From: Neckera pumila
Lineage: Eukaryota; Streptophyta; Bryopsida; Hypnales; Neckeraceae
Assembly (NCBI GenBank): GCA_963969595.1
Contig: OZ018410.1
Location: forward strand, 32,430,913 to 32,494,912
Direction: 5' to 3'
Length of the DNA: 64,000 bases
In this document: piece by piece, positions 7,878-63,574 of the stretch
Position numbering within the stretch: the stretch's first letter is position 1
How the letters are laid out: every line of letters begins with the position of its first letter
Notes under the pieces: model-generated
The model's input: the letters and a program-made list of their open reading frames with translations, nothing else
Told to the model about the DNA's origin: nothing
The model's database searches: none
Program-made: the position numbers and the translations under genes

Positions 7878-7883
7878 ATGAAT

Positions 7884-15861: not shown

Positions 15862-16697
15862 CCTCTAAAAGTCCAAGTCATTTTCTAGGTCCAAAACCAA
15901 TGAAAACTGCCATTTTTGCTGTGATAACTCAAGAAACTCCAAACAAGATTTTTATTAGAATCTAACCATAAGATCTTGTACTTCACTTGTTTCAAATCAT
16001 GTAGTAAAAATTTCATGAAGTTTAACTGTACGGATTGGAAGATATTAGTATTTGAAGTTGGAAAAGCAAGTTTTTTTGAATGTTGGTCTACAATTTTAGA
16101 TGACTTTGACTGCCGTTTGTAGAAATTCTTTGTACTATAGACCATAGGATTCAAATTTGTTTGTTGAACATTTAATTTGAGAGTTAAAGAATAAAAATTT
16201 AGAATGTCAAAACTTGATTTTCACATATAAAAAAAAATTGTTAAGTAGAATTAGGTCCAAGATTGAACAAAATACTAAATTATTAATAACTCTAATATGG
16301 AATTGAAACATTATAATTGAAATGGTGAGATTGTTCATGCAAACAAGATTCACCCTATCAAAAAAAATTGATAAAATTTGAAAATTGCATTTAAAAATGA
16401 ATTCTATAAGTTGTTTTTTGACAAAGATGAATAGACTGCCAAAAATACATAAATTTAAAAAAAAATTAAAAATTAAAAATATTCATTTTTTTTGTTTTTT
16501 TTGTTATACCTGGCAAATTGCTTTTGGGACTTCAGATGGAATAACTTTTGCTCCCAGACGTAGATTGAAAAAAATTATACTTTTAGAAAGATAATGTAAT
16601 TTTCTATCTTCAAAAAGAGATTAAAAAAAATCAAGTCAAACTTTGAGGTCATATAAGCCTGCCCAAAATTTCAAGTGGGGCCTTGGGCCTTTAGGGG
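15862..16697 (-). mobile_element. TTAA-family element A (836 bp)
   Basis: The termini are CCTCTAAAAGTCC on the left and GGGCCTTTAGGGG on the right, each flanked by TTAA (15,858-15,861 and 16,698-16,701). The left carries the family's R-end signature AAAACTGCCATTT. The right carries the L-end signature TTTTGGGCA (read inverted), so the copy is reversed. It is the closest relative of element E; both share ACTCAAGAAACT and GATCTTRTACTTCACTTG blocks. There is no open frame of note. It is a non-autonomous DNA element by structure. Confidence 0.8.
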
Positions 16698-16839
16698 TTA
16701 ATGATGCAAAATAATGATGCAAAATAATGAAGTATGATGTGGTGCAAACAGAGAGGGCTACAATTGTAAGACAGTTGTATAGGACACTTAACTGCATTTT
16801 AGCCGGTTGTGGCAGACACTTTTTTCTTGTAGTGATTAA

Positions 16840-18231
16840 CCCCTAAAGGGCCATTGTCCCTTTGGGGACAAATGGGAATTTTGGGCAAGTACCTACAAGC
16901 TAAAGTTTTGTCCAGCTTTTTGGAAACTTTTTTTGAAGATAGATTAGCTTCAAGGAAATATAATTTTTTTTTCAATTGGTGCCCGAAAACAAAAGTTATG
17001 CCCTTAACAACTTGGAACTTGAAAAGGGGGAGGGGAGAAGAAGGAGCAGCAAAAAAATTTCAAAACTTTTAATTTTTTTCTTTAATTAAATTTTTTTTTT
17101 CTTGTAGATTGTATTTTGAAAACTTTGAATCATTCCATTTGGATTTGTTATGAGAAAGTTATGGAAAAGTTTGTTTTTCAGGCAATTAGAACATCTTCTT
17201 GAAAAAATAACTTGTAGGATTCATTGTTAAATGCAATTTTTACAATTTTTGAAAAATCAAATTCCACTTGGTTTAATTTGCTTTCTAGAACAATCTAACC
17301 ATTGGGATGAATGCATTCATAATTTTATTTTAGAGATATTAATAATTTAGATTTTCCTTCTATCTTGTATCTACTCTACTTAATAATTTTTTGAAGTATG
17401 AAAATTAAACTTTTTAAAATCTTTTTTTTTTTCAAAATAAAGATTTAAAGCTCAAAACTTTTAGTGAAAAAAATTAAAGTTAAGAAGGTTCAAAGTAAAA
17501 TAATGTAGTCCCGCAATGTGCTAAAAAAATGGATTTTTTTACTTTAAATATAGATATCTTGCAATTTGTGCATTTGAAAGTTTGAAATTTTTTCCACACA
17601 TTCTCATACTTGTTAAGTGTAAGATCCTACGGTTAGATGTGCCAAAAAGATTTCAATTTTCTTACTCTTTGCTATAAAAATGACAGCTTTGAGTCTCAAT
17701 TAGGAAAAAAATGAACCCTGGAAGGGGCTGCTTCGTAGTGTAAGCTTCCCCTCCAAGGAACTCCAGGAAACTCAACAGTGATTTACAATTAAAAAATATT
17801 TAAAAAATATTTAAAAAATATTTAAAAAATAAAAAATATTAAAATATTAATAATATAATAATAATAAATAAAAATAATAATAATAAATAACAAAAATAAT
17901 AAAATAATAAAAGTTGTAATGATTGCAGTCTGACATGGCATGTGTAGTGCCATGTCAAATCTGAAAATTTTGTAATTTTGAATTTGTTTTAATAAAAAAA
18001 GAATTTAATGTTTTTTAAGCAGTTCAGCAGCTGCACTGTTCCCTGCTGTTCTGCGCTGTTCCGCGCCTGCAATTCACTGTCGCAAAAAATAAAAAAATAA
18101 AAATAATTTTTTTTTTTTTTTTTTTTTTTTTTTTCGGCTTGCGTTCCCTGCGTTCTCAAGTCTCACGGCCTCTTCCAGGGTTCAACTTTTTCCTAATGTT
18201 TGGCAGAAAAAAAGCCATGATCCTTTAGGGG
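16840..18231 (+). mobile_element. TTAA-family element B (1392 bp, including a nested MITE)
   Basis: The left terminus is CCCCTAAAGGGCC and the right is ATCCTTTAGGGG, flanked by TTAA at 16,836-16,839 and 18,232-18,235. The L end contains the small palindrome TGTCCCTTTGGGGACA and then TTTTGGGCA. The internal block CAATTGGTGCCCGAAAACAA is shared with A, E, G and H. It is longer than its relatives only because of an insertion at 17,699-18,197; without this it is about 0.89 kb. A long poly-T and AATATTT-rich tract lies in the nested part. Confidence 0.8.
17699..18197. mobile_element. CATTAG-type MITE nested in element B
   Basis: The ends are inverted: ATTAGGAAAAAAATGAACCC on the left, complement of CATTAGGAAAAAGTTGAACC on the right. 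Inside are CCTGGAAG/CTTCCAGG, an AT-rich array (17,790-17,930), the block TGACATGGCA, and a GC-rich segment with GCGTTCCC. The same features appear in the MITEs nested in D (42,371-42,688) and G (60,172-60,402). B and G carry it at the same point near the R end. Confidence 0.6.
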
Positions 18232-18892
18232 TTAACATTCAGTTCTTAGGCAAATTCAATCAAGCATACCAAATTTCAATTTTCAAAAGAGTAAATTTCC
18301 ATTTATAGTGAATTCACTCATTTGTTATACATGGTTTTATATGATAATTGATTGAAAAACATTCGTGATGAATTCTTTAAAATTCAATTGCATAGATATG
18401 TAGGAAACATCCATGCCCACATCTTTTGTACAACAAGAGTCTCCAAAAAAGTTTCAAAATTCCATCTATAGAGAATTCAATATTGGGATAACAACGCCCA
18501 AATTTTTTAAATAAATATCTTTTCAATGTAATTAGATTTTGCTATTTGGCCCTCACAGTGTAACTAATTTTGTACCTTGAGTATGATGGTACAATCAATT
18601 TGTCAAAATCTAGTTAAAATATAGAAAAATCTATTTTATAAAAATTAAGACATTGTCACCCCAACATTGAATCTATATAAAAGGAAATTTGAGACTTGTT
18701 TGGAAAATGCTTATTGAAGGAAAGATTTTTATATGGATGTTTTCTACATACTTATGGAATCAAATTTGAAAATTCATCACCAATGTTTTTCAATTAGTTA
18801 ACATGTAAAATTTTGAATATTAAATGAAACAATTCATCCAAAATGGGGGTTTGTTTTCTGAAATTAAAATTTGCACAAGAATAGAATGTTAA
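18232..18892. mobile_element. Foldback element FB, copy 2
   Basis: The left end TTAACATTCAGTTCTTA pairs with the right end ATAGAATGTTAA, and the inner arms share CATAGATATGTAGGAAACAT. It corresponds to 2365-3781 without that copy's insertion. TTAA element B abuts its left end, the TTAA being shared by both. Confidence 0.55.
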
Positions 18893-19867
18893 TTATGGAA
18901 GATAAAAATGTCAAAATGTATTCAATATTATGCAAAATTCTTTGAATGATACAGTAGGTAGTGTGTAACGGATGATGAGACACCATTGTGTTGAATAATA
19001 GATGTGTATAGAAGACATGCGTAGATGGCCTAGAATGATCAGTACGGACTCATTTTAGAACCTTGTTAAGGTAATGCTATCAACCATCCAATTCCAACAT
19101 CTACTACAACCTCCCATTTGCGTCCATTACCCACCCATTACCTCAATCTTTAGCAACCCTATAGCATCATGACAACATGCACTTGGGGAGGGGACACGTC
19201 AACGTGTAGTTTAGTTTGGGTCTACTCACGTTGTATCAATTTTGTCCCAACAAACTTTGAAAAATCACAGAAAATTCATTTCTTGTTGAAATGTCTTCAT
19301 TGTATTTGCAAATGATTTCTTTCAAACTTCTCAATATTTGAAAAATACATGAGCAGACAAATAGCTTCTCCAAGGTATCTAGATAGCAAATCTACTTGGT
19401 AATAGGCATGTTACCAACATCTTAGTTTTATAACCCCCTTTACTTCAATCAGGCTCCTCCCATCATCTTAGTTTGTATATCCACCTTTGGATCAACCTTC
19501 CAGGTATCAATCTTCTCACTAGTAATGTTCTATCATACATAACATTCAATAGTCTTACTAACTATTGCCTCCTCTCTGATACAATGATGTGGAATATATT
19601 TGTAGAATATATCATTTCATTCGGAGGATGAAATGGTGTAGTATACTCCACATTTTATTAGTAACTACAAGGCCAGGTGGCAAGACTTGTCAGTAGTGTA
19701 TTGAGTTAGCAAGTTCAATGCTGCAACACTTCCAATTTCATCAGAATATAAAACTGAGCTTTAAAGTACAATACAACTATGAAATGTTGAGCAAAATATC
19801 CATTGCCAAGAGTGAATTAGCTACTAATTTAGCAAGCTTCAAAAGTCATTTAAAAAAAATTGGAATA
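18893..19867. other. Non-coding DNA without recognised features
   Basis: No coding region or repeat was recognised by eye. The composition is mixed, with an internal inverted block around ATATATTTGTAGAATATAT (about 19,590-19,615). Confidence 0.4.
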
Positions 19868-21091: not shown

Positions 21092-21094
21092 TTA

Positions 21095-21233: not shown

Positions 21234-21236
21234 TTA

Positions 21237-26015: not shown

Positions 26016-29000
26016 CTACAAGATGTAATACTTCTGTCCAAACATCCACACCACCAATGGCAAGTGCTTGCCTAGTTGGTTCCTCTGGCAGGACTTTAAG
26101 AATTTGAGTGTGGAAAAACAATGCTCATCCTCTACCGAACCTAGCACAAGACAACAGCCAATCTCTGCAAGTTTGAAGTACTCAAAAATGAACTTGATTA
26201 AGTGCCGTGATTGTGATAGACCCCGCCAGAGCAAGATCACTGGATTCACTTTGGAAGATGAGGCACATACTGCATCAGAGTTAGCTCTCATAGTCATCTT
26301 GAACAACCCTTGTTGATTGTCAAGTTTAGAAGCAGACAGCATTTCAGGCGCTATGAAATTGGTTCCTCTTTCTTGCATTGCGGTCCCTGCATGCAACACT
26401 TTAGGGTGAGAGTAAAACTTTTTGAGAATTGCTAAGTGGTGATTGAAGCTCTCTTCCGCACCCGCTTGCTTCCAGTTCTGCGGATAATTGATCCCAAACG
26501 CATCTAGCAACTCCTGCTGAGGGAATTGCCTACCGAGCTCATCCAAAAGGGATTTTGCCACAGCAGAACACATCAATTAGTGTACATGGCATACCTTACT
26601 TAAACCCGCACTCACCTTCACCAAAGAAGCACCAGAATCACCTTACCTTCTTTCTAAGAACCAGAATCACCTTACCTTCTCCCTAAGCACCTTACATTCA
26701 CCAAATCAGCACTGTACCTCCACAAAATTGGCACCCAAAACAACTTACCATCACCAAATCGACACTTAACAATAAGCAATCTACCTTCAGCAAATGGGGA
26801 CCTAAACCTTCAAGCAATAACAAAACTTCACTTACCTTGAATCAAACATCATTTGAACTTCAATCAAATAGCAGCTCAACTTCAAGAAAACAACACCTTA
26901 CCTTATAAAATACCAGGTTACCTTCACAAAGTAGCCACCTTACCTTCATAAAACAGCAGGTTACCTTCACAGAAGACCACCTTACCTTCATAGAAGACCA
27001 CCTTACCTTTCTAAAACCTGTAATCGGCAACTTACCTTCAAGAAATTGGAAATTTGACACCTTAAGAAAAGAAGCCACCTCAAGGACATCAGCCAAGCTA
27101 AGTAGCCTAATCTAATCAGCCACCTTAATAAACTCAAAAAAGTTTACAATAGAAAACAAACAGAAAGATGGAACCACAAAAATGGCAAGCAATGTCTACA
27201 GCTGCCCAGTCCCACATTGAAACAACCAAAAAAATGTAACAATGATGAAAGAATGGAAGATGACCAAACAAAAGGCAAAGAAAGAAAAGGTTGGACTGAA
27301 GGGACATACCCGCAGACTGCCACTGGATGTTCGACTGGGTGCCCAAGAAGTCCTCTCCGTCACAAATTTCTGATTTCCCGTTTGCTTGCAATGGCAGTGG
27401 AGAAATACGGTTGAAAATTCCAAAGTTAAAGAACAAGTACAAAATGCCAGGCTCCTTAGGCATCTCCCTCCATTCTAAAGGCAGGTCGGAGCAAGACAGG
27501 GAAATCAGCTCCTGATATCGGCTGAACTCTAGCGTTGTGAATGTTATAGCTTCATCAACAAACATCTTCGCCAAGTTTGCCTGGCAGACCTTCATAGACT
27601 AGAGGAAGTCGCAGATGAATACATCACGAGACTGAGAGAGTTTAATGAGGTAGTGCACGGCATTCAGCAAGGGGATAAAACACAAAAGAGATAGCAAAAC
27701 CTCAACATCGGCCAGGTAACCAAAGTTTGTGGCCGCTAAAGCATTGGCTTTGGCCTCCATGTCAATGCCCATCTTCACTAGTAGAGTCTTGTACTCTGCC
27801 ATAATCCGTTGCGCCAGGCTACGCATCAAGATCCACCTAGTCTTGATGTTCCGGACCATCTTGTTTTCCTTTGTCTCAAGAAGATCTGCCAACTTTTGTA
27901 ACTCCGTGTGGCGTTTGTAGCTGTAACAAAAGTAGGAGTATAGAGACTGGCACAAGGCCTCCAACCTAGAGACCAGCGGGCAGTTAGACAGAGTTTCAAC
28001 AACCAAATTGATGAGGTGACTTCTACAGCTAGCTCCTAAGCAAAATGGCGCCCATTTCTCACGAATCTGGGTGGATACCCCAGTTTCCGGTCCTTGAAAG
28101 GTGCTTACACCATCTGCTCCAAAAGACACAAGTTTGCTAGCGGGTTTGTCACGAGTAAGTCCTCCTTTGCCAAGTAACGCTTGCATTATCACATCTGTGA
28201 GGTGATTTGCAATCCCACAGTCAGAAACGCAAGACAAATGAAGCAGGTGAGGACTCTTTCCCAAGAATCTACAGCGTATACATGAATACCAACCCATGAT
28301 GTGTTATCAATTGTTGTTACCTCATCAACACAGATTGACACAAACCTGACAAATTGCACAACAACCTTCAAGGCAGACAGGACACTGGCGTGAAGGTGCT
28401 CACTCATTTTCCACCCTGCTATTTTGGACCAATGCTTTTTAGGAACTCTCTTAACCTTTAAGTGCCGCAGTAAGTACTATTCCCGTTCGTAGTCGCACAT
28501 GGGCCAACCCGACTATAGAACTTGAAACAAAGTTGAGAATTGTACCGCCTTTCTACTCGCTTTACCTTCCAAGCCTACAATGATTTGGTCCGCAACAGTG
28601 TCGGACACATAACGCGCCGCCCACACCTTCGTGAATTGAATGTGTTTGCAGTTGCACTTCAGGTAAGTGTCCCCTTTCTTCAAATCCGTGGAAGGCTCAC
28701 CATCGTGCTTCCCGTCATGCTTGCAAGAGCGCTTCCCCTTGTGCTTCTCGAGGTTGCCGCCTTTGGGCACCGAAATTTTCTTCCGGCCACTCACACTGCT
28801 GCACGTCTTGCAAACGACCCCAGTTAGATTTTCAGAAGCATAGAACTCCGCTTCTGCCCACGTGAACCTACACACTCACACTTCTTGCCATCTCCTTATC
28901 ACAATGGTGGGCGCAAATTTTCTATGTTTGTGCGGCTTCGGAACAAGGCTGTGCTTGTCGTTGTTGACCTCAGGCGCGGAATCAGGCACCTCCGCTGACA

Positions 29001-30617: not shown

Positions 30618-30625
30618 TATAAAAG
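30618..30625 (+). promoter_or_regulatory. LTR promoter TATA box (copy 2)
   Basis: TATAAAAG lies at the position equivalent to the TATA box of copy 1, followed by the same GGATCCGTGGGTT-like block. Conservation between two old copies supports function in the parent element. Confidence 0.45.
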
Positions 30626-35928: not shown

Positions 35929-36845
35929 CCCCTAAAGGACCAAACACCATTTTTTGGCAACATAGCAAATTTGGGCATCTCACTACATATGGAAATTTTA
36001 GTTATTTTCTTTGAAATTTTCATACAAGATGTGCCCAAGGAGCAGCTTCAAGGCCCAACAATTTTTATAACTTTTGATTTTATAGGTAAAAAGTTATTGC
36101 ATGATATGTGATTTTCCGCGTTTGGCGAGCAATCCGTACAGCTCAAAAAAATTATTTAAAAAACACTTTTTTGAAAAATTTGAAATTGGTTTAATAGATT
36201 TATCTATACTTAGAAAGCTTGATACATTAACAAGTCAAAAGTTATGAGGAGTTTTAGTTTGAGGTTAGTTATAAAATCTCTACTCTAAAATAAACTTTGA
36301 AGTCCTTTATCTAACTCAATTTTCAATATTTTTGAATAAAACAAAAACCTCTGGGTGTATATTGTTTACTACATCATTACAACTATTGGGATTGGCATTT
36401 TTCAATTCCACAATTAAATTCTTGACAATTTAGTATTTTGAGTCATTATCTACCTCTTCCTGCTTACTATTTTTTTCCTATATGTTGTACAATTCCAAAT
36501 GATCTGAAAATTTTCAAGCATGTAGCCAAATTGCCTTGAAGAATGAATCCAAAGAGTAACTGCCATTTTGGACATTTTTTCATACAAATGTGACCTTGTG
36601 AAGGGCTGCTGCCCAGATTTTTGCAGTGATTAAAAAGGATTTTTGTCAATTCAAACGCTATTATCTTGCAATCGACAAGGTGGAAAATTCTGAAATTTTT
36701 CCCACATCTTCTTAAACTAGTGTACTACAAGATCCTATGGTTACATGTGTTCAAATATGGTTTTTTTTTTAAAGTTTGGTACTTGTATTAGAAGTGGCAA
36801 TTTTGGAGCGGTTTTGGTGAAAACATAGTCAAAAACCTTTAGGGA
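35929..36845 (+). mobile_element. TTAA-family element C (917 bp)
   Basis: The termini are CCCCTAAAGGACC and ACCTTTAGGGA, with TTAA at 35,925-35,928 and 36,846-36,849. The L end has TTTGGGCA. The R end, read inverted, has AAATTGCCACTTCT. It is closest to D; both contain GATGTGCCCAAGGA, AAGGCCCAACAATTTT and AGTTATTGC(A/G)TGATATGTG. Its target is a repeat rich in AACATTGA words, which continues on both sides. Confidence 0.8.
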
Positions 36846-36849
36846 TTAA

Positions 36850-42248: not shown

Positions 42249-43521
42249 CCCCTAAAGGACAAAACATCCTATTTTGACAACATAGTAATTTTGGGCAGCT
42301 CACTATGAACGAAGTTTTTCTTTTCTTTTCTTTGTATTTTTCAGAAAGATGTGCCCAAGGACTCAAGGAGCATTAGAAGAGATTTGAAGCCTCCAAGAGC
42401 CCGCAGGTTATCCTGCATTCCCACAGCGTTCCCACGTTGTGGAATGCAAGAAAGCTGCTAGACTCATGTGGTCGAGAGAGTGCCATGTCATTTTCAGAAA
42501 TAAAAAAATAAAAAAAAATAAAAAAAAAATCGGCCTGAAATGGTATTTGGGAGAGAATTTATTTATTTTTTTTTTAAAATTTTTATAAAAAAAAATTTCT
42601 GACAGCCCGTACCGACTGTTCACAGTTCTGGATAGATTAGGGAACGAGCCTGAAACGGCCCTCCAATGCCCTCAAATCTCTTTTGATGTAGCTTTAAGGC
42701 CCAACAATTTTCATAACTTTTGACTACATGGTTAAAAAGTTATTGCGTGATATGTGATTTTCATTGGTCGGTGGGCAACGTGGGCAGCTCAAAAACTTCT
42801 TTAAATATCACATTTAAAAAAAGTAAAAATTTGAAAATGATTCTTTAGATTTATATACACGCGGGAAGCTTTGAATCATTCCGTTTTGATTAATGGGAAG
42901 AAAGTTATGAGGATTCTTAGTTCGAGGATAGTTACAGAATCTCTACTCTAAAATAAACTTTGAAGTCCTTTATTTAGCTCAATTTTTTATATTTGGAAAT
43001 AAAATAAAAAAAACTAGTTGTAGATTGTTTATTACAACATTACAACCATTGGGATTGACATTTTTCAATTTCATAATTAAATTCTTAACAATTTTAGTAC
43101 TTTGAATAATTATCTATTTCTTTCTATTTAATATTTTTTTCCTATACGTTGCATGATTCCAAATGATCTGAAATTTTCAAGCATGTAGCCAACTTGACGT
43201 GAAGAATAAATCCAAAGAGTAATCACCATTTCTAATACAAGTACCATTAACATTTTTTGATACAAATGTGACCTTGTGAAGTGCAGCTGCCCGGATTTTC
43301 GCAAAGACAAAAAATGGATTTTTGTGAAGTCAAACGCTATCATCTTGCAATCTACATGGTGGAAATTTTTGAATTTTTTTCTAGAACTTCTTAAACTAGT
43401 GCACTACAAGATCCTATGGTTATATTTATTCAAATTTTTTTTTTCTAAAATTTGGTACTTGTACTAGAAATAACTATTTTGGAGCGATTTTGGTGAAAAT
43501 ATAGTCTCTGACCTTTAGAAG
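42249..43521 (+). mobile_element. TTAA-family element D (1273 bp, including a nested MITE)
   Basis: It starts CCCCTAAAGGACA and ends ACCTTTAGAAG, with TTAA on both sides (42,245-42,248 and 43,522-43,525). The L signature TTTTGGGCA is present. Compared with C, it carries an extra 318 bases at 42,371-42,688; without these it is about 0.96 kb. Only 37 bases separate it from element E, which lies in the opposite orientation. Confidence 0.8.
42371..42688. mobile_element. CATTAG-type MITE nested in element D
   Basis: The ends are CATTAGAAGAGATTTGAAGC and the complement of CATCAAAAGAGATTTGAGGG. Element C has GTGCCCAAGGAGCAGCTTC uninterrupted at the same place, so C shows the site without the insertion. 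The interior shares GTGCCATGTCATTTT and GACAGCCCGTAC with the MITE in element G. Confidence 0.65.
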
Positions 43522-43566
43522 TTAACTAGCCTAAACAATTCCCCCTTGAAGATAGGGACAGTCTAA

Positions 43567-44399
43567 CCCTAAAGGCCTAAGGCCATTTTTTGGGTTTGAA
43601 ACCACTGAAAACTGCCATTTCTGCTGCGATCACTCAAGAAACTAAGATTTTTTTTTTAGAATCTAACACTAGGATCTTATACTTCACTTGACTTAGATCA
43701 TGCTATAAAAACTTCATGAAGTTTGACTGTACGGATTGGAAGATATTAGCATTTGAAGTTGGAAAAAGACCTTTTTTTGAATTGTGGCCTACAATTTCAG
43801 ATGACTTTGACGGCCATTTGTAGATTTGTTTTGCACTACACTCCATTGGGTTAAATTTTTTTATGTTGAACATTTGAGTTGAGAATCAGAATTTTTTTTT
43901 CAGAATGTCAAAACTTGATTTTTCACATATAAAATAGTTGTTAAGTAGAAGTAGGTCCAAAATTGAATGAAACACTAAATTGTCAATAGCTCTTAGGTGG
44001 AATTAAAACACCATAATTTCAATGGTGGGATTGTTCTTATAAACAAATTAAACCTTTTTCAAAAAAAAAATTGGATCTTTTTGAAAATTGCATTCAAAAA
44101 TGAATTCTATAAGTTTTTTTTTTGAAGAAGATGCTTAGATTGCCCGAAAAATAAGATTGTCCATAACTTTCTCATTCTAAGTCTAATAGAATGAATCTGC
44201 CAAGGGAGTTGCTTTTTTGACTTTGGGTGGCATAACTTTTGCTCCTGGGCACCGATTGAAAAATAAATATATTTTTAGGAAAGTTAATGTGATTTCCTAT
44301 CTTCAAAAAAAGTTTCAAAAAATCAGGCCAAAATTTCAGGTCACATGATCCTGCCCAAAATCCCAAGTGTCCCCCGAGGGGACTTTGGGCCTTTAGGGG
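43567..44399 (-). mobile_element. TTAA-family element E (833 bp), target CTAA
   Basis: It starts CCCTAAAGGCC and ends GGGCCTTTAGGGG. It is flanked by CTAA on both sides (43,563-43,566 and 44,400-44,403) instead of TTAA. The L end (on the right) contains GTCCCCCGAGGGGAC and, further in, TGCCCAAAA. The R end (on the left) contains AAAACTGCCATTTCTGCTGC. It resembles A throughout. Confidence 0.8.
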
Positions 44400-44403
44400 C
44401 TAA

Positions 44404-46755
44404 ACTTGGATCCTTGGGAGTAAATTTAGTTTAATTTGGAGAGAGTCATTAGTTGACTGTGAAGAGTTGTAATGCTAATGTCATTGGCTAACTAGAAAGT
44501 TACAAAGAGTCATTGGTTGGTTGGAAAGTTGCAATGCTTGGTGCTGGGAGCAAAAGGAACTCTAACATTGGTTAGTAATGTTATGCCGAAGGCTTAAAAA
44601 GGTATGTTTGCGTTTGGTGTTAAAGAATGTTGTTATTGAGGGTCTTAGGAACAAATATAGACCTAATTCTGGACAAGTAGAACTACGGTAGAATCCCAAT
44701 TCCCACACAAACGAGGCCAGAAGTGATTCGTAAAATTCAAAAGATTCTCAAGACCCAGTCCGCGGCTGCTCTATTCATGGCGCTCTGACATCACACAAGT
44801 TCCTGTATTGTACTGTGCTGCACCTCCATGCACCAAGCACGACACAGCCACACACAGTCTGCAGTCTGCAGTTTGCACGCTTGAGCTTGCTATGTTTACC
44901 ACTTCATGCTGCAGTAATTTTATAATTTGTAGCGACAAACTGCTCACGCTGTACTATACATTCAACCTTAAGTTATTATTAACGTACCCTGTAGCGGAAA
45001 GAGGCAAGCTTGTCGACACGTTTTATAGACTTGCTTCCCCTCTAAGTTAAGTTAACTTAACTGCGTTTTGCATCCACTCCTTTTCCCTCGTCATCCCAGC
45101 AAATCACTCCTCCCTTTCCATCCAAGTCCCCAAACACCAAGGCATTCCACATTTCCAACTCTGCACTTGATCACGGAATTCAATTCCAGGAAAAATCCAG
45201 AAACTGGCAGACTAATTGCCGGATTACTTGACATAACATCTGGGGATAATAAGACGTACCTGCTGAGCTGGGCGGGCGGGCGGGCGGGGACCCCGGAGCT
45301 GACTCCGGAAGCGCTGCATTCAAGGCTTCAAGCGTTTTGTTGCCAAACAAGAAAAGGACCACCAGTCTTGCAATGAAATTCCGTTTCATTTGTTTCAAAA
45401 AAAAGGAAAAAGAAAAGGACCACCAGGGCCTCCCGAATTGATGACTGACCTCTCACTATCTCTTGTGTAGACAGGTCAGGCTGATTTCACTGTACTGGTC
45501 AAAATGGTGTGCTCCATCAGAGCGCCAAATACTTTTGTCATTCAGGCTTCAGAAACTAGGAGCCTTTCTAGATCTTGTGTTCCAGTGGTCCACTGACAGC
45601 GTACAAAGTTCACTGGAAAAGTGGAAATCCGCCTTTTCAACGAATGATGCGCTTTGTGCGCGCAGCCCGGCCCGCGCGTCGACAACGAGGATGGGCCGAT
45701 CAGCCGATGGCGTGTCAGTTTGTTATTGCAACGGGACGTAGTACCAGCGACTGACTTTGCCCATTCGTCGAAGTTAACTTAGATTCTACCTAGCTTTCGT
45801 TTTGTTGCTGCTGGGAGGTACAAGACGCGAAGGAAGCCCAAGTATTGGTGCCATGAAAGGAAGTCTGGTCTGTGGCTATTGGTTGCTGTCGGAGCTTCAG
45901 ATTCAACGGCTAACTTGTCGAAAGTGCGGGTGCCACAGAAGCGGCGAAAGCTGAGATTTTGCGGCTGAGATTGAACTTCAAGTGGTTTAGTAGTGTGTAA
46001 CGACTGGATGAGGCGAATCTTGTGAATGTTTTACTGAGCAAAGTACGTTGTTCTACATTCTCCATGAACCTTTCAGTTTTGGTTGGCGGTACAAGTAATC
46101 CGGTCTAGCAGGGGATTTCGAAAGCGTGGCTAGGTTAGTACTTGGCATTGGAAATCGAGCTGCTTTCAGTTACCCTCATTAGACCTCCTTGAGTTCCTCA
46201 CTAGGTGGCAATGGCCCCGTAGAATGTCATTCAAAACGTGACTCCGAATCTGGGCTTTGAAATGAGTCGGCGGCTTTGGTGATGGGTCGTGTCGGAGTAC
46301 CAGTGAGCCGGGCAATATGAAGTCCTAGTTGAGAATGAGTGGGCTCAGTCACAGCGGATTTGAACACAGGGCTTGTCATTCGTGGCTTCCGGGATCACCT
46401 AGTGCAAGATCGTTTCAAAATTTGTTCTAGTTTTGCACGCATTACCCTGAAATTCACAAGTGCGAAGCAGGTATTGAGAACGACAAGATTTCTTGCGACA
46501 TTACCATTGAAAGCGCATCAGAACGTTACAGGCGACATTTTTGAGCTCCAAGCTGGTTGCAGATGTATCCCCTAGCTAGTTCGTTTTCGCCAGGATTCGC
46601 AAGGAGGTGCTCACCAGTGATCCAAGGAATGGTAGAAGAATGGGCACCATTTGCACCAAATTCGCACTAGCGAATATTTGAGAAATCTATACTACATGAA
46701 TCCTGCAGACGTTGAAAACCTGTGATCGTGAGAGGGGGAGTTCGTGACGGTCACT
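44404..46755 (+). promoter_or_regulatory. Upstream region and probable leader of the AUX1/LAX gene
   Basis: Composition changes from AT-rich to GC-richer at about 44.7 kb, after the last transposon. Pyrimidine-rich leader-like sequence (45,070-45,140), a GC-rich block (45,260-45,310; 45,655-45,690) and many short frames follow. Two TGTCGG words, the high-affinity auxin-response core, lie at 45,887-45,892 and 46,290-46,295. An 18-base perfect palindrome AGTTAAGTTAACTTAACT is at about 45,045. I cannot place the transcription start or exclude a leader intron. None of the short frames is called as a gene. Confidence 0.35.
45270..45289 (+). promoter_or_regulatory. Candidate G-quadruplex upstream of AUX1/LAX
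   Basis: GGGCGGGCGGGCGGGCGGGG gives five G-runs with single-base loops, an excellent parallel quadruplex pattern on the plus strand. It lies about 1.5 kb before the start codon. It may be a promoter or leader feature. Function is inference. Confidence 0.5.
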
Positions 46756-49700
46756 ATGGCCAGTGAGGAGAGGCTGTCGGGGAGCTATGGCGAGATGGAG
46801 GAGCAGAACGAGAGGATCGAGTCTGCGACGTACAACATTCCCGACCCCTCCGTGAAAGGACGCGTCAACATGTTGCTGTTCCAGGGCCGCTCGGTCTACG
46901 ACGCCTGGTTCAGCGCGGCTTCCAATCAGGTAGCCATTGCAACTCACTCAACCACAAAATTAGGTCACAATAGGGGAGCATCACGAGAAAAGCTCAAAAT
47001 CGTTAAACATGGCGAAATTTCTAGCGCCCGTCCGGAAACTCAGGTCTGTACCGATCCTAGCGTCAAAAGTAATCTCGAGGTGTGGAGCTTTAGAGATATT
47101 GTAATAATGGTTAAGATTACGTACTGAGCTAATGCTAGAGTAAAGAGATTGGAAAAAAAACTGATGCTAGTTTTTGAGCTCTAAGCACTTGAATTTCGCA
47201 ATTGTGGCACCTCAAACACTCAATCAACCATGAGTGGGGAGAATTTAGAATGAAAATTGGAACGACATTGAGATGTTGTAAGGTTGTAACATTTGCGTTG
47301 CGATGGCATTAGTAATGTCACTGTAATGCGTTAGAGTGGCATTAGTCTATTGTTTAGAGGCGTTTTACAGTACTGTTGTAAGAAGTAGGCACATGCTTCC
47401 CACTTGAATTTTGTAGAGATTGAGAATGCCGTGGTTGTGAATGCAGATAGCGCAAGTGCTGTTGACGTTGCCAACGTCGTTTGCACAGCTGGGGTACGCG
47501 TCCGGAGTGGCACTCCAAGTGGTCTATGGCATTATGGGCTGTTGGGCGTGTTACATGATCACGTGGCTGTACATGGAATACCGGACGCGAATGGAGCGAG
47601 AGGGCCATACTTTTAAAACTCATGTCATTCAGGTAAGGAAAATCTCTAGACTAAGATAGATCCATGTAGAATGACGTCATGTTTTGATGTGAATTTTGTT
47701 GCAAAGGATTCACTTCTTTGCTGATGGCAGTGGTTTGAAGTGCTGGACGGATTGCTCGGGCGGAAATGGAAGTACGTGGGACTGGCATTCAATTGTGTGT
47801 ATCTCCTCTTCGCGGCCATCACGCAACTTATCGCTTGTGGAAGGTGATGCCCTAATTTTGCCCTAATTTTGAATCCCAGCTCTCTTTTCATTCTTTTGCC
47901 CTAATTCCACTACCGACATTGGAGAATTGGAATTGGACTAGAGAATTTGTGGAGTACAGGATGAAACTTGAAATTGACGTGTGGGTTACATGGATTCCGT
48001 GTGTGCAGCAATATATTTTTGCTGAACAGTGACCTGGATAAGCGAGAATGGACATATGTTTTCGGTGCTTGTTGTTTGGTGACAATCTTCATTCCCTCGT
48101 TCCGAAACTACCGTCTGTATTCGTTCTTCGGCGTTGTGGCGATCACGTATACGTCGTGGTATATGACAGTCGCTGCGCTTGTTTATGGTCAGGTAATCAA
48201 GCCTCTTCATTTCCTTGGTCCATGGCTGACCTCAGTAAGTATCTTGCGCTGTTTTGATCATTCTCTTTACTCTTCAAGAATGTAAGTTTGTTTCTCTAGG
48301 TCATGAAGTAATTATCCTGAAGCCAGTTATATTGGTTCTGTTTGGCCAGGGTATGATTTGTGGTACTCACTCAATGGGATGTCGGTGATACTGTATTTTC
48401 GAGTGTAGGCGCCCGGAGCAACCCACCATGGCCCCAAGTCTTTGGTTCTCTACTTTACCGGCGCCACCAATATCCTTTACACCTTCGGCAGCCAGGCTGT
48501 CACCGTGTAAGTAACACCCGCCCTACAGTGAAGTCCTTGCATTTGTAAATTCCTAATTAGGATTCAACAACAACACTGTGTCCGAGTGGTTCTACTAGCA
48601 AGTTTAAAGCAAAAAACCCTGGGAGGAATTCTAGAAGAGTTAACCTTGTTAAACTGTGCTAATTGGAATGCCATGTAAGGTAGTTTCTACTGTAAACCCC
48701 TCCCAATTATTATGCAACTATGTTTTCTATAGCGCAATGGATGGATTTTCTATTAGTTAGTTGACATGCTAATCGTAATGTCTACTAAGATAGTTTCTAA
48801 TGTAAATCTTGCCAATTGAAATGCAAGGAGTTTTTTCCCATAGTTCCTCTATTGCTGTTTCTTTCAAAGTAGTTTGCTCATGTGCCAATTGTAATGCCTT
48901 TTGAGGTAATCTCTAATCTCTAAATCCTTCCAATTGTAACCTGGGATTGTAAGCAAAGCAACTATTTTTTTCTAGTATATCTCTAATGGATGGGTTTTCT
49001 CCTAGTTTGTGGGCATGCCAATGGTATTGCCTTTTGAAGTGGTTTCTGATGAAAATTCTGCAACTTGTAAAGCAACTCGTTCTTTTAGACTATCTTTGTG
49101 GGGTGGGTTTTCTGATATTTTCTGATAGAAACTGGACTGATCCAGAACATTTTGTATTATTTTGTTGCAGGGAGATTATGCATGCGATGTACAGACCCGT
49201 GAAGTTCAAATATGTCTACTTGTTTGCCACGCTCTACATCTTCACGTTAACCATCCCGTCGTCCATGGCCATCTACTGGGCCTTCGGAGACTCCTTGTTG
49301 GACAACGCCAATGCATTGCAGTTGCTGCCCAAGTCGCCTGCTCGGGATGTGGCCGTCCTCCTCATGCTCATCCATCAGGTGCCCCATCTATCATACCATA
49401 GTTTCAATAGGTTTGGTTCGCGTTTTACATTTGTTCAGAGATTTCTATGAGAAAGAGTGCACCTAGGCAAAGTTCATGGCTAGTTCGACCAAGGAGGATC
49501 TGGAGGAGGAAACTCGGGATACTATAGGGCGTGTTAATGGCGACGCTGTCCTGTTCTGTTCTGTCGGCTTAGTTTGGGTTTTGAAATAAGATAGTCACCC
49601 TAGCTCTTCGTACACGGACACAAAGGGGGGAAATCTTAACCTGAACAATGACAATATAAACTATTAAGATCAAGAGTTTTAATAAATCCTGCTACATCCC

Positions 49701-52457
49701 TTCCACTCTAATCTTCCATCATAGTGGGGGTGATTTCAAAGATTTTGATGGTAATTCCCAAGCTCCAACATCTAAGTATTTTGAAGATTAGAATCCCATG
49801 GGTGCAGATTATAACCTTCAAGAGCTTAAGATATTACCGACCTAGCATGTTATGTGCCCCATTGGATTAGAGTGAAAATTTGACCCCTTGGTGCAAACAC
49901 TTTAGTTGAGTTTGAAAATCTTAGCTTCTTGAGTTTTATATTTCCTCCATTCATATATTTTTTCTCCTCTGTTTGTATTATTGTGCCCCTCTTGAAGCAT
50001 GCGAGTGTGAATAGTGTTGCATCAGGCAGAAGATTTGAAAGAAAGTGACTTATACTAAATAGCCTTAAAAGTGTAGTTTCTACTGTAGACTACTTGGAGA
50101 AACCCTATACCCTAGAGAACATGTTTCTGCATGCCCAATGCGTAGAAGCCCCTTGGCATATGAAGTCCTTATCCAACTTTAGGGTGCTCTGCAAAGACTC
50201 GTTATTCACGAATTCTCTGGAGCAGATTTAGGGTGCTCTGCAAAGACTCTCGTTATCCACGAGTTCTCTGGAGTAGATTTAGGGTGCTCTGCAAAGGCTC
50301 TCGTTCTTCACGAATTCTCTGGGGCAGATTTAGGGTGCTCTGCAAAGACTCTTTATTCACGAATTCTCTGGAGCAGATTTAGGGAGACTCTCGTTATTCA
50401 CGAATTCTCTGGAGCAGATCAAGTGGGATTTCTGACAAGGCTGTGACAGCTTTTCAGGCTGTCCTGCTCAGGGATTCCTTACGATTTGCACAATGGGTCT
50501 TCTGTACTACACATCTTCACCTTGATCTGTCTAATGTGGCTACCTGGGGTCGAAAAGATTATGACATAGGGTGAATGTGTGACAAGTGTGCTAAGGTAAT
50601 TGCACCTAAAATTGTCCAAATAAGCATTTGAGTTTGGTTCCCATTATTAAACTGTCTAAACTTTTGTTGGATCTTGTTGGGAGTCAAAAGGGGATTTGAG
50701 ATTCTCTTTGCGTCTGTTTTTTGGACAACATATGGATAAACTACGAATTTTAAATTCCAGAGTGTTCATAACATTATTAACCAGACCTGGGGGGTCCCTT
50801 TTGCTTCCGCAGAAAGGGGAGCCCCCCAGCGCTGCAACCTGAGCCTTTACTGGAGTTATCCTCAACGTGGCCAATCTGGAGTTGTCATGCTCTGACAAAT
50901 TTTGTATCAGCCACTAATCACAGAGAAAAGATCATCTGGCTAGCCAATGATTTTGCTTGTATTATAACGAAACTGCTAGCCAGGGATCCCGGAGGGAATT
51001 ATCCCTCCCCTGTCAGGGAAGGCCAGAGCCCAGTTAACAATGTTATGTTGTTTTCCAGGTATGCCTATTGCGGAGGCCTGAGTGAACTGTCCCCATTTAA
51101 TTTGTGTTCCTGTGGGTGTGTCTCCCTGCAGTTCGTAACGGTAGGGTTTGCAGTGACGCCGCTGTACTTCGTGTGGGAGAAGCTGCTGGGCGTGCACCAG
51201 GCCCAGTACATGCTGCTGCGCGCTTCCTGCCGAGTGCCCATCCTGCTGCCCATTTGGTTCTTCGCAGTCGCTTTCCCTTTCTTCGGCTCCATCAACTCCA
51301 TGGTGGGCTGCTTGCTCGTCACCTTCACGGTGTACATCATCCCCTGCCTGGCTCACATGGTCTACTTCTGCAAAGCCTCTCTCCGTGCGGTAGGCTACTT
51401 CACTCCCCTGAGCAATCAAACCAGCAATGCCTACGGCACCCCCTTTTGATGTTGCAACACGATCGTCGTTTTTACAGCCTTCGTTTCTCCCTTCTCAGAT
51501 TCATGGAAGGGATTCGATTGCCCGGCCGATTGAATCTCTCACATCGCTTTGACATCGTTGGCTTTGAAGGACTCTCATTTGCTCCATGTTTTTGTGGGGA
51601 ACCCAATTCCAGTGCTGTATGCTGACCCCTTATTCGCGCTTATACCAGTGTTTTACTAGTCAGATGATGTTCATGATATTCATGACAGAGCTGTGGTGGA
51701 AGTCTTGGTAGATCTCTATTATATAAAGTGCACAATGTCAGGACTCGCTGTCACATTCTCATCAAGACGGACGTTTTCATTCAAATTTTGGGAGTACTGC
51801 TGGGTTTAAAATGGAGTATTTAGCAAACTTAAGAAAATACTCAGTTCTTTTATGCAACGGTGTTGTTGTTGCAAATGTTGCAATGGTTGTTCTACTAGTA
51901 CATCTGTATTAGCAAATTATATCTTGAATACAGTGTATAGCAGTGGTATTGGGTTCCCACCTTAGTTAACTTTGTTGCAAAAGGGTATGTAGGATGCTAG
52001 TCTTGTGAACTCAATGTTTTCAGTGGGGTTGTTATAGAATGTTATGTGTAAGGTAAGAAACTAGGGCAAGGTGCTTCATGGGAATAAGCACCTGCGACTA
52101 GGATGGTGGGTGATTGTGTTCTAGTTACTTATCCTAGTTACTTCTCCTGCATGAAGAACTTTGAGGAATTCTTAGAAAGAAATTTGACATGGAGCGTGAT
52201 TCGGGAAATTTGTGGCAGTTCTTTGTGAAGAATTCTGAAATGTTGGGTGTTATTGTGTGCAGCCCTCAGTGGAGAAGCCGCCGTTCTTCTTACCCTCTTG
52301 GACGGCCGTGTATGTGGTGAACGTCATCGTGATTGCGTGGACGCTGGCGGTGGGGATTGGCTTCGGTGGCTGGGCAAGTATTTCCACCTTTATCAAACAG
52401 ATTCGCACCTTTGGTGTGTTTACAGCATGCTATCAATGTCCAAAGTCCAGTAGATAG
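46756..52457 (+). CDS. Auxin influx carrier, AUX1/LAX family (8 exons, 471 aa, complete)
   Basis: AUX1/LAX proteins are plasma-membrane proton symporters of the amino acid/auxin permease family that import indole-3-acetic acid. Exons: 46756-46929, 47447-47632, 47731-47843, 48009-48192, 48409-48506, 49171-49378, 51132-51389, 52263-52457. All introns are GT-AG with matching phases, giving 471 codons; the family is usually 470-490. Family blocks include VYDAWFSAASNQ (exon 1), QVLLTLPTSFAQLGYASG (exon 2), WFEVLDGLLG (exon 3), FGACC...IPSFRNYRLYSF (exon 4), LYFTGATNILYTFG (exon 5), EIMHAMYRPVKFKYVYL (exon 6), TPLYFVWEKLLGVH (exon 7) and EKPPFFLPSW plus CYQC (exon 8). About eleven membrane helices are expected. 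The start is the first ATG in frame; an in-frame GTG lies 12 bases upstream. The N-terminal tail is acidic and unlike that of flowering-plant AUX1. No break is seen. Confidence 0.95.
50178..50420 (+). repeat. About 51-bp tandem repeat, five units, in AUX1/LAX intron 6
   Basis: Units start TTTAGGGTGCTCTGCAAAGA and end CACGAATTCTCTGGAGCAGA. Four are full length (49-51 bases; starts 50,178, 50,227, 50,278, 50,329). The fifth at 50,378 lacks an internal piece. High similarity between units points to recent expansion. Confidence 0.9.
50789..50827 (+). other. Strong GC hairpin in AUX1/LAX intron 6
   Basis: GGGGGGTCCCTTT is followed after 11 bases by AAAGGGGAGCCCCCC, forming a stem of about 13 pairs with one bulge. 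It is surrounded by lower-GC intron sequence and could be the centre of a small MITE. No role is known. Confidence 0.45.
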
Positions 52458-54622: not shown

Positions 54623-54624
54623 AA

Positions 54625-58694: not shown

Positions 58695-58697
58695 ATA

Positions 58698-58901: not shown

Positions 58902-59730
58902 ATAGTTACCTATATTATATGTTTTTGTATACTTCTTCAATGGTTGTAAGAGAAAGGGATGTTTTAAATATACTACTTACACATATGCTCAAGGCTCACA
59001 TGCTCGCATTTTCATGCTCACATACTAGCATCATTGCTCTAAATGCTTTACAATTATAAATGTAAAAATATTTGAAGAAAAACATTTGACTAACCAACTA
59101 CATTGCATTTATATGGCTACTTTGATGTCTTTGCCCAAATTCAAATGAATGTCAATACAACGCCTAACTTATTATGTAGACAAAGTAAGTTGGATCTACA
59201 CCAACCTCTTCCTCCTCCTTCAAAGCAATATAAAATAAGATGTATAGAGTTCACATTTTGTAATGATAGATTCTTATCCAAATTAGTGGAAGTAAAAATA
59301 TAATAAATATATCCCTTTATTTATAGAATAAATAAAAATATCGGCTGACTGAAATCCCTTGTAGCCTTCTATCACAACTCGTGCAAGAGAAATAATACAT
59401 GTCAAATTGTCTTAGATATCCCACGAAAATTTTAAAATTCTATAATTAACTATTAATACAACCCTTAATAACGTAAATGATATCGCAATCAAATACTCAG
59501 TTTATATACTACTTCACATTCAAGCGAGAGCACTTGTAAACAACCAAACATAATCTATTTTTATAGATGCATCATAAATATTATAAAATACAATAGAACT
59601 TTTCTAAAGTGAACTTCTCTAAGCCAATGACCTCTTTAAAGTGATGGAGTATTGGCCCAATCCTCGACATACACATCAAAGAATTTCTTTGAAATTGGAG
59701 AGTTAATTTGGAGACTTGAGGGGGCTATTA

Positions 59731-59860
59731 GAACAGCCCCACTACAACACGAGGAAGCAACACTTTAAATGTTTTGCACCATTGATTTTCTAAGATCCTC
59801 TAAGATCAATAGTGCAGAATATTTAAAATGTTGCTTTTTTGTGTTGTAGTGGGACTGCTC
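59731..59860. mobile_element. Tourist/PIF-Harbinger MITE (130 bp)
   Basis: GAACAGCCCCACTACAACAC on the left pairs with the complement of GAGCAGTCCCACTACAACAC on the right, continuing through AAGCAACA and TTTAAAT. TTA flanks both ends (59,728-59,730; 59,861-59,863). It lies immediately before the recognisable start of LINE copy 2. Confidence 0.8.
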
Positions 59861-60125
59861 TTACTTTACAAAAGTTATAATCTACTCATAAACAATATTA
59901 TTTGCTATTGCATCCATAGGATGAAACTACATCCTAGTATCCTTCTCAAGCATGGCTCATGGTACATAGACCATCAATCTCAAGAGGCTCAAGGGTGTAG
60001 AACCACATTACCTCCGCTTGGCGATGCCTAGTGAAGAAGATTGAGCTCATACCACCCTCCACCTCTGATAAGGTTCTTACAACTAGCTTGTGGTGGTCCA
60101 TAAGCTTCATTGGAGCTAAATTTAA

Positions 60126-61239
60126 ACCCTTAAGGTCCAAGGCCTTTTTTCTACCAAAAAGCACCCAAAACCATTAGGAGAGATTTGAGGGCATTGGAAG
60201 GCCATTTCAAGCCCGTTCCCAAATATGGCCGATTTCTGTGAACAGCCAGTACGGGCTGTCAAAATTTTTTTTTCAATTATTTTTTTCCAAAAATGACATG
60301 GCACCATTTCAACCACATGAACCAGCAGTTATCTTGCGTTCCCGCAATTTGAGAACGCAGGGTAACTCGCAATCTTCCAAAGGTCTCAAATATCATATAA
60401 TGTATCATTTTTATACCAAGATTAAAAAATATTTAAAAATGATTTTTTAACACATCAAATTGTAGGTTCTCACACTTAACTAGCATGAGAATGTATAGAA
60501 AAAATTTCAAATTTTTTCAATTGCACAGATTGCAAGATATCTACATTCAAAGTAATAAAACAAGTTTTTCAACACATTGAGGGACTAGATTTTATGACTT
60601 TGAACATTTTCATTTAAATCTTTTGCACCATAGAGTTTTAAGCTTTAAATCTTTATAGTGGAGAATTGATTTGAGAGTCTAAGAAAAAAAAATCCAAAAT
60701 AACTTAGTTTTCATTATTAAAAAATTATTGAGTAGAAGTAGGTACGAGATAGAAGGAAAATCTAAAATATTAATATCTTTTATATAGAATTAAAAAGCAC
60801 AAGTCCATTGTTCTAGCCAAAAAACTAAACTTTGTGGAACTTTTTTTTTTTGAAAAATTGTAAAAATTGCATTCAGAAATGAATCCTACAAATATTTTTT
60901 TCAAGAAGATGCTCTAAGTGCCTGAAAAAAAAGATTGTCCATAACTTTCTCATAAAAAATCCAAATGAAACAAAGAAAAGCTTTCCAAATAGAAAAAATA
61001 TATAATCTATAAAAAAAAACTAAAAAAAAAATTAAACGAATTTTTTTTTGCTGCCCCCCAAATGTTGTTTTGAGCTTATTTGGGCATAATTTTTTTTCTA
61101 GGGCACCAATTGAAAAAAGATTATATTCCCACAAAGCTTAGTATTTTTTCTATTGTCAAAAAAAGTTTCAAAAAAGCACAACAAAAATTCAGCCCGTAGG
61201 TCCCATTTGTCTCCCAAAGGGACAATGGGCTTTTAGGGG
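60126..61239 (-). mobile_element. TTAA-family element G (1114 bp), inserted in LINE copy 2
   Basis: The left end is ACCCTTAAGGTCC (first C changed to A) and the right end GGGCTTTTAGGGG, with TTAA at 60,122-60,125 and 61,240-61,243. Read inverted, the right carries the L end with ATTGTCCCTTTGGGAGACA. It also has the shared block CATAATTTTTTTTCTAGGGC. A nested MITE occupies 60,172-60,402; without it the element is about 0.88 kb. The LINE coding sequence on both sides rejoins through a single TTAA. Confidence 0.85.
60172..60402. mobile_element. CATTAG-type MITE nested in element G
   Basis: It starts CATTAGGAGAGATTTGAGGG and ends with the complement of CATTATATGATATTTGAGAC. The interior has GGCATTGGAAGGCC, GCCAGTACGGGCTGTC, TGACATGGCA and GCGTTCCCGC, which match the MITE in D. 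It is in the same place relative to the R end as the MITE in B. Confidence 0.6.
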
Positions 61240-62649
61240 TTAACTTCTCTACTACTAAGGCAAGGGAACTTGCCCATCAAGGGCTAAGGACCATAGTTGA
61301 CTTATGGGACTCTAACTTACACGACTATAGATCATGGGAAGACCTATCATCTACATTTTCATTTACTAATCTTGAACGCCATCATTAGTTTTATTTACGA
61401 TCGAGAATCCCTCAATGGATTCTACTCCTCACCTCCTTTTCTGATTGGGCCCAAGAAGGAGAATGGATAGGGATGTTTTCTAAACTTGACGATCCAATCC
61501 CAATTATGACTTGGTAGATTAGTGGTCTGAACTTCAATCTCCATCCCTTTGAAGTCCATACATTCTCTCTATCTCAAGGAACCAAAAAAGCAACCGTGAA
61601 TCGCAATTCTAGGATACTTTCATGTGCCTCGCCTAACAATGATGAAGATGAATATTGTGGATATACACAAAAAATTAGGGTGGTGCAGATCCACAAGAGT
61701 CATAACCAAGCTATTTTGTATTTCATGGCATCACACAAGGACTAGTCTTCAACCCGGGGCATTGACAATGGAGCAATGGTCTATCACTAATGGAATACTC
61801 AATGCCTGTAGGTTGCGCTCTTATCACCTAGAATGCCCAATTAAAGACCACCATTATGTCAAAGTGGGCTGGACATCTTCCACCTACCTTCACTCCCAAC
61901 TGAAAAGATGTGTGGCATAAGGCTTGATCTCTTAAAAATGCAACTTTCATGTGGTCTATTTGGCACATAGCCATCGCCATTTACTCGTGGAGAGCCCGTA
62001 TTGCCCCTGACATCGACACCAATTGCAACTGTTGCACACTAGGTCTAGAGGAAACACCTACGCACCGGTTTTTCATTTGTCTGCAAGCCCAAGAGGTATG
62101 GAACTATGCTCAGCCGATTCTCCATCGCATATCAGGATCTAAACCTACCTTGGGGCCTCACATCAGGTTCGATGCCATTCAATGTATCTTTAGTTCTACT
62201 ATTCCACGCCAATTCACTAGCTTCCGTACCATTTGGTCTTTACTCAGAGGCTCCTCCTTGTGGCTCATCTAAATCGCTTATAACAACACCGTTTTCTCAA
62301 GGAGCACCTGGCCCCCAACTCTCTACAAGATAACTTATGGAATGACCTTTTGGACTCAGGCAAGGCAGTACAACTTAAGGCCGAGATTAATTTCTCGTCA
62401 ACATCCCCAATAATACAATATCATTTGGTCCAAGTTTGATAGTATAATTGGCTCCAATCTCTTGTGTTAGCTTTTTGGAGTGCATCGTCCATCATTTGGA
62501 GTAGAAAGGGCCCTACCATTTGTTCTTTCACTTAGTTCTTTTGGTTCTTGTTCCTCTTTTATTTTATTTTTTTTCCTCTTTTTTCTGTTTTGCTCTTAGA
62601 CTATCTCTTCATTTGCCACCCTGGTTGTTGTTCTCTGGTTTCTTCTTAA

Positions 62650-63574
62650 CCCCTAAAGGACCGGTTGTCCCCTCGGGGGACAAATTGGGTCCGGGCAGGT
62701 TCCTACGATCTCAATTTTTAGTAATATTTTTCGGGATTTTTTGAGGTTGTGTATTTCTGCGAGATCTTTGTGAATATATAATTTTTATTTTAATTGGTGC
62801 CCGGGAGCAAAAGTTATGGCACAATAAGTAAAATTGGAATTTTGCGGGCAGCACAAAAAAAATCACAAAAAGTCAAAATAATTTTTTTTCAAATTTTTTC
62901 CTTAAAGATTATATTTTTGTCTACATGTGAAGCTTTGTTTCATTCAATTTGGACTAATAATGAGAAAGTTATGGACAATCTTAGTTTTTCGGGCAATCTA
63001 AGCATCTTCTTGAAAAAATAAGTTGTAGAATCCATTTTTGAATGCAATTTTGAGAATTTTTCAAAAAAAATTGTTGGAAAGGGTTAGATTTTCTTGCTAG
63101 AACAATCTCACCGTTGGGATTATTGTGATTCAATTCCATCTAAAAGCTATTAACAATTTAGCTTTTTCTTCAATCTTAAACCCACCTCTACTTAACAATT
63201 TTTTAATGAGTGAAAATTAAGTGCTTTTTTTCCTAAATTTTTTTGGTAGATTCTCAACTCAACTACTTAACATAAATAAGTAGAAAATCGAAATCAGTAG
63301 TGCAAAAAATTTGAACTAAAAAGATTCAAAGCCAAAAAATCTGGTCAAGCAAGTTGGAAAAAAACTTGTTTTCTTCACTTTAAATGCATATATCTTGCAA
63401 TCTACGTGGTCAAAGTTTCTGAAATTTCTTCCACATATTCATATACTAGTCAAGTATAAGATCTTATGGTTGGATATGCAAAAAAAAACAATTTTTTAAA
63501 CTCTTTTCTCTTTGCAATAGAAATGACAGTTTTGAATGGTTTTTGGTCGGAAAATCACCTCGGTCCTTCAGGGG
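62650..63574 (+). mobile_element. TTAA-family element H (925 bp), inserted in the LINE copy 2 tail
   Basis: It begins CCCCTAAAGGACC and ends GGTCCTTCAGGGG, with TTAA at 62,646-62,649 and 63,575-63,578. The L end holds the clearest palindrome, TGTCCCCTCGGGGGACA, at 62,666-62,682. The interior includes AATTGGTGCCCGGGAGCAAA, as in B and E. LINE copy 1 shows the same 3' region uninterrupted. Confidence 0.87.

Follow-up and report, generated by a model that had tools for sequence, protein, structure and literature searches.

The stretch examined here, referred to below as the window, comprises 64,000 nucleotides of the moss Neckera pumila (contig OZ018410.1 of assembly GCA_963969595.1, positions 32,430,913 to 32,494,912 of the forward strand). 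It holds eight copies of a DNA element of about 0.9 kb, each bounded by short inverted termini and lying between direct TTAA, or CTAA in one case. Seven of them had been recognised from the letters of the window only (hereafter the sequence-only reading) and had been assigned to the piggyBac superfamily. piggyBac, a tool for transgenesis, is regarded mainly as a group of animal elements. Here we describe the copies, their abundance and target site in the genome, and the transposase-bearing elements with which they share their ends.

Copies in the window

The copies, with one example of each terminus, are as follows (positions are those of the window).

12699-13644, minus strand: eighth copy, 946 bp, TTAA on both sides, internally rearranged
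15862-16697, minus strand: element A, 836 bp, TTAA at 15858-15861 and 16698-16701; leave-one-out score 406 bits
16836-16852, plus strand: 5' end of B, TTAA followed by CCCCTAAAGGGCC
16840-18231, plus strand: element B, flanked by TTAA, with an insert nested at about 17709-18187
35929-36845, plus strand: element C, 917 bp, flanked by TTAA
42249-43521, plus strand: element D, flanked by TTAA, with an insert nested at about 42362-42689
43567-44399, minus strand: element E, 833 bp, direct repeat CTAA at 43563-43566 and 44400-44403
60126-61239, minus strand: element G, nested insert at about 60165-60445, TTAA at 60122-60125 and 61240-61243
62650-63574, plus strand: element H, 925 bp, flanked by TTAA; leave-one-out score 538 bits
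63562-63578, minus strand: the opposite terminus, 3' end of H, TTAA followed by CCCCTGAAGGACC in the minus-strand reading

The sequence-only reading had described seven elements with inverted CCCCTAAAGG termini between direct TTAA (CTAA at E), about 7.3 kb in combined length and uniform in core length once nested inserts are removed. Pattern, BLAST and profile searches re-found all seven where they had been placed, and the combined length agrees; the total of seven has to be raised by the eighth copy. With the nested inserts of B, D and G excluded, the cores measure 832-945 bp (with A and G trimmed by one base too many in this measurement). The termini read CCCCTAAAGGRCC with few changes, the inverted ends are about 10-13 bp long, and the first ten alignment columns are common to at least seven of the eight copies. 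The inserts nested in B, D and G resemble miniature inverted-repeat transposable elements (MITEs), those of D and G being alike by eye.

In a leave-one-out profile search each of the seven was found from the other six, with 345-538 bits for the main piece. A model of the seven finds the eighth copy in three pieces (54, 40 and 38 bits) that overlap in model position, which shows that this copy is internally rearranged. Pairwise identity among the seven, taken from one global alignment, ranges from 50% between subgroups to 81% (C-D), and the window family is therefore old; local BLAST between copies mostly gives 68-84%. The pairing of the ends was compared with 100 dinucleotide-preserving shuffles of the window, counting TTAA+CCCCTAAAGG ends that pair up at a distance of 600-1600 bp. 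When up to two mismatches are allowed per end, the window holds seven pairs (the eighth copy included, E not) and every shuffle none; with at most three mismatches the window holds eight, and the shuffles average 0.18 with a maximum of 3.

Six of the seven elements are flanked by TTAA on both sides and E by a direct repeat of CTAA. TTAA is self-complementary, so its presence at both ends could in principle belong to the inverted repeat; the CTAA of E argues against this, since a direct repeat of that word on both sides is a target duplication and not a palindromic end of an inverted repeat.

Abundance and target site in the genome

The genome searched comprises 339.5 Mb in 18 contigs, of which C1-C11 measure 12-53 Mb. 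The exact terminus CCCCTAAAGG occurs 22,415 times (11,167 + 11,248), against 294 for the reversed-pattern control, and TTAACCCCTAAAGG occurs 18,843 times (9337 + 9506), against 2 for its reversed control. TTAA thus stands directly before 84% of the exact termini (18,843/22,415), so that the genome-wide flanks, which the sequence-only reading had proposed as a check, agree with those in the window. The CTAA-preceded terminus CTAACCCCTAAAGG was found 312 times, TTAA being sixty-fold commoner.

Abundance was estimated from 19 ten-kb stretches at round-number places chosen before their sequence was seen (a 20th place lay beyond the contig end). The seven-copy model covers 17,018 of these 190,000 bases, or 9.0% (5.4-12.8% by bootstrap over stretches), which extrapolates to a family total of about 30 Mb (18-43). 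Four of the 19 stretches contain no model match, and the reversed sample gave none. Within the 19 stretches TTAA precedes all eight exact termini and 25 of the 33 found with at most one mismatch (8/33 are without it); the reversed pattern matched seven times, and for six of these the preceding words listed do not include TTAA. All eight full-length copies in the stretches lie between TTAA and TTAA. Loci L004-L011, which were chosen by exact termini, stand outside this last count, and the overlapping L007-L011 were de-duplicated by flank. In all the genome DNA covered by a wider count, TTAA adjoins 27 of the 30 5' ends recognised and 25 of the 29 3' ends; in the wider set of 16 full-length copies, two are without TTAA on one or both sides, namely E with its CTAA and one copy with TCAA on one side. 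TTAA-flanked ends reading CCCCTAAATG were also seen at L018:1556, L023:716 and L026:749 and 8252, and perhaps represent another subfamily.

Transposase-bearing elements

The Pfam domain PF13843 (DDE_Tnp_1_7) is carried by named piggyBac proteins. A search of the genome for it gave 872 candidates, of which 116 were scored. Each of these passes the curated cut-off, the best with E 4.6e-80, and every one of C1-C11 has matches. By count from the table, 35 of the 116 matches have no stop inside the matched stretch. The domain was found in none of 14 control genomes, a result of little weight because their names are not given. Seven of the 116 loci were fetched, from the higher-scoring part of the list and not at random: three share both ends with the window family, three share the 3' end only, and one has other ends. 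The first three hold complete elements, each between TTAA on both sides.

L031:585-6210: complete 5.6-kb element
L032:728-6350: complete 5.6-kb element
L033:783-6404: complete 5.6-kb element

These elements are 5622-5626 bp long, are 98.8-99.2% identical, and occupy three sites with different flanks; such near-identity suggests recent spread. Their inverted ends are CCCCTAAAG ends, identical at 14 of 14 positions. L031 and L032 carry an unbroken frame of 638 amino acids counted from the first ATG; L033 has a frameshift upstream of the domain. The L031 protein matches PF13843 with an E-value of 4.9e-81, and among all PDB chains at E of 0.001 or less it matches only Trichoplusia ni (T. ni) piggyBac 6x67 (3.2e-35) and piggyBat (1.7e-23). 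Equivalents of D268, D346, D447 and D450 (T. ni numbering) are present in all seven genome copies read, and in 18, 16, 14 and 14, respectively, of the 18 nearest relatives, the remainder being gaps. We take D268, D346 and D447, together with D450, to be the catalytic aspartates of the T. ni protein.

With the L031 protein as query, tblastn finds no piggyBac transposase in the window, in keeping with the statement of the sequence-only reading that its copies encode none. That reading had also expected an autonomous relative to exist, or to have existed, elsewhere in the genome and had proposed a search for long elements with the same ends and a DDE_Tnp_1_7 domain, as which L031, L032 and L033 qualify.

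Shared ends and the piggyBac assignment

The link between the short and the long elements lies in their outer parts. On L031-L033 the seven-copy model matches with its positions 1-213 (76-77 bits) and 624-920 (158-163 bits), in that order and at the extreme ends of the elements; apart from these the model has only three matches there, each of about -1 bit, and it has none on the reversed elements. In BLAST the 3' end of L031 matches all seven window elements at 68-71%, and its 5' end matches four of the seven (B, E, G and H) at 67-85%; when the entire element served as query, this 5' match was to E, G and H.

Ends, target site and coding relatives together place the family in piggyBac, and the reading first made from the window is borne out by PF13843 in the genome and by three coding elements whose outer ends the window copies share. 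The window copies are almost certainly non-autonomous piggyBac-superfamily DNA transposons of about 0.9 kb, with ends in common with the 5.6-kb DDE_Tnp_1_7-encoding elements of the same genome. In the most likely mechanism a piggyBac transposase would bind the CCCCTAAAG inverted ends and neighbouring sub-terminal sequence and would excise the short elements, which would then be pasted into TTAA with duplication of that word.

The target site by itself admits other superfamilies. Sola3 uses TTAA, as piggyBac does. Kolobok also makes TTAA duplications (PMC9587614; the papers cited in this report are used in excerpt), so that TTAA duplication, which the sequence-only reading had called a textbook signature of piggyBac, was found as described and is shared with another superfamily. 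Mobilisation of the copies by Kolobok or Sola3 is nevertheless very improbable: the excerpt gives Kolobok termini as 5'-RR / YY-3', whereas those in the window begin 5'-CCCC, and the transposase domain encoded by the long elements with these outer ends is PF13843 (Kolobok and Sola transposases were not searched for).

Several observations weigh against the piggyBac assignment or against a simple form of it. The middle of the short copies (model positions of about 214-623, 410 bp) matches none of the three 5.6-kb elements, and the short copies are therefore not simple internal deletions of them. The L031-type end reads CCCCTAAAGTCCCA and the window type CCCCTAAAGGRCC. The family starts CCCC (CCCCT) and so departs at the fourth base from the textbook CC[C/T]T start. 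About 16% of exact termini genome-wide have no preceding TTAA. Only seven of the 116 PF13843 loci were fetched, with both ends shared in three; L035, L037 and L038 share the 3' end only, and the DNA past the TTAA of that end is alike in all three (TTAATTCC), which means that this end lies within a longer repeat and that no insertion boundary is shown there. In L038, TTAATTCC begins a 349-bp tandem unit or array.

Relatives without the insertion

For 24 insertions the flanks were joined and uninserted relatives were sought in the window and then in the fetched genome DNA; the profile boundary is several bases off for A, C, D, G, L013, L018 and L021, and these joins are inexact. A spanning uninserted relative was found for nine insertions and none for the other 15. 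Exactly one TTAA is present in four of the nine, namely those of B (relative at 3796-3682, minus strand), L008 and the 5.6-kb elements of L031 and L032. Three have a near variant differing by one or two bases: the two insertions of L019, and H, whose relative at 5948-5814 (minus strand) reads C-AA in place of TTAA. In the remaining two (L005 and L021) the alignment is ambiguous. A possible uninserted relative of G, at 7405-7223 (minus strand), extends only 6 bp beyond the junction.

These relatives bear on a second alternative, by which a Tc1/mariner-type (Stowaway-like) element duplicates TA with a preference for T-TA-A, and the TTAA duplication is only apparent. TTAA/TTAA flanks fit this reading too, and as far as we can infer, the uninserted relatives do not separate TA from TTAA. 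It needs two agreeing separate changes to account for the CTAA/CTAA of E, which is one case, and here too the long elements that share these outer ends code for PF13843 (mariner transposases were not searched for). We consider a Tc1/mariner origin most unlikely.

The DNA around G and H (59500-62640) resembles the region 6106-8891 of the window, which shows H, and nearly G, as insertions. That region contains reverse-transcriptase fragments of the long interspersed nuclear element (LINE) type, with RVT_1 over the cut-off at 7983-8891 and zf-RVT below it at 6106-6474.

Candidate source of the transposase

Under the piggyBac assignment, the mover of the window copies would be the L031-type transposase or a relative with GG-type ends. 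We lean slightly towards the latter, that is, towards a piggyBac lineage distinct from the L031 type, such as GG-type L035, L037 and L038, with L031 only a cousin. The window ends read GG, not GT, and the 3' ends of L035, L037 and L038 read GG as well and are 74-81% identical to A and E; for L035 the values are 81% with E and 77% with A, as against 69% and 71% for L031. On the other side, no complete GG-type autonomous element was delimited at these three loci; they lie inside a long repeat, the ends of which could not be located, and neither L035 nor L038 yielded a matching 5' end.

A repeat of more than 12 kb, mostly 97-98% identical, is common to C5 and C2 (L039+L038+L040; L036+L035). It holds a piggyBac frame, nested short copies and the 349-bp tandem array, and may be a giant composite element or a duplication; its termini were not found.

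The seventh fetched locus carries a third type of element (L034:594-5956), flanked by TTAA, with the inverted ends CCCCTTGGGGACTA / CCCCTTGAGGACTG (12/14) and no ends in common with the family. It sits in a TTAA adjoining the end of a short family copy.

Protein relatives

A search with the L031 protein gave 67 matching proteins. The first 18, from the sources jgi, lgn and ena, are 42-66% identical to it; the remaining matches reach 34% or less, and those with an organism in the name are from animals and one oomycete. None of the 67 is a named plant protein, and identity to named animal piggyBac is 31% at most. In a quick maximum-likelihood tree of 80 proteins, the three types from this genome and the 18 nearest proteins fall on one side of a branch with a Shimodaira-Hasegawa-like approximate likelihood ratio (SH-aLRT) value of 98 (no bootstrap), L034 being the first branch within that group. 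Our guess is that the 18 are from plants.

It seems probable that a separate plant piggyBac lineage, apart from the animal-named relatives in the tree, is a leading DNA transposon group of this genome, with about 9% of it made up of non-autonomous progeny and with 5.6-kb unbroken members that moved recently. This lineage may reflect ancient descent or transfer from another eukaryote.

Comparison with known systems

The elements resemble T. ni piggyBac (PDB 6x67) in the TTAA duplication, in short inverted ends starting with C, and in a DDE_Tnp_1_7 transposase with the four aspartates and a Cys/His-rich C-terminus (seen in L031-L033, L037 and L038). They differ from it in the plant host, in a length of about 5.6 kb against 2472 bp (PMC10140906), in a protein match of only 3e-35 by phmmer, in the CCCC ends, and in the very large non-autonomous family alongside. 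For piggyBac, inverted ends of 12-19 bp starting CC[C/T]T are described in an excerpt of PMC2872659; many bee piggyBac start with CAC, and the start motif is thus not strict (PMC10140906). Coral CMITEs are likewise non-autonomous TTAA elements, one family of which shares terminal sequence with a piggyBac of the same genome (PMC2872659). CMITE inverted ends are described there as less conserved than the interior, whereas here the first ten columns are common to at least seven of eight copies and about 510 bp of the ends match the coding relatives.

The sequence-only reading had described piggyBac as not a standard part of plant genomes. A plant is indeed an unexpected host, and the surprise lies in host and abundance, but surveys already list the superfamily in plants. 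PiggyBac is among the superfamilies of all groups surveyed, land plants included (PMC4438587), and among the MITE superfamilies of angiosperms (PMC10004981); 1230 piggyBac-labelled pieces totalling 122,417 bases are recorded for Ceratopteris (PMC6890710). The excerpts of the first two papers, which concern the same superfamily in plant hosts, are listings without a described element; for N. pumila, coding elements, ends and copy number are given. Searches of the open-licence PMC literature turned up no account of a plant piggyBac element with transposase, ends and copy number; Repbase or Dfam may hold an entry. PMC10619864, which had come up as a moss piggyBac paper, was rejected, the word in its excerpt being 'piggybacking'. 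Host setting and scale are what is new here; the system itself is of a known kind.

With its many coding copies, unbroken frames and about 30 Mb of dependent elements, this plant offers a testable native system, and bears on the route by which piggyBac reached plants. It also suggests that much of such a genome would be misnamed by plant repeat annotation that leaves TTAA elements out of account.

Other features of the window

Rfam gave no match at the gathering threshold. A scan against viral contigs gave three loci, without a computed chance expectation. On the minus strand, 26016-28875 contains broken frames that read by eye as transposase-like and have no Pfam match; one frame has 38 homologues, none informatively named. 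On the plus strand, 46732-52400 contains exons of an AUX1/LAX-type auxin transporter gene, which supports a plant host.

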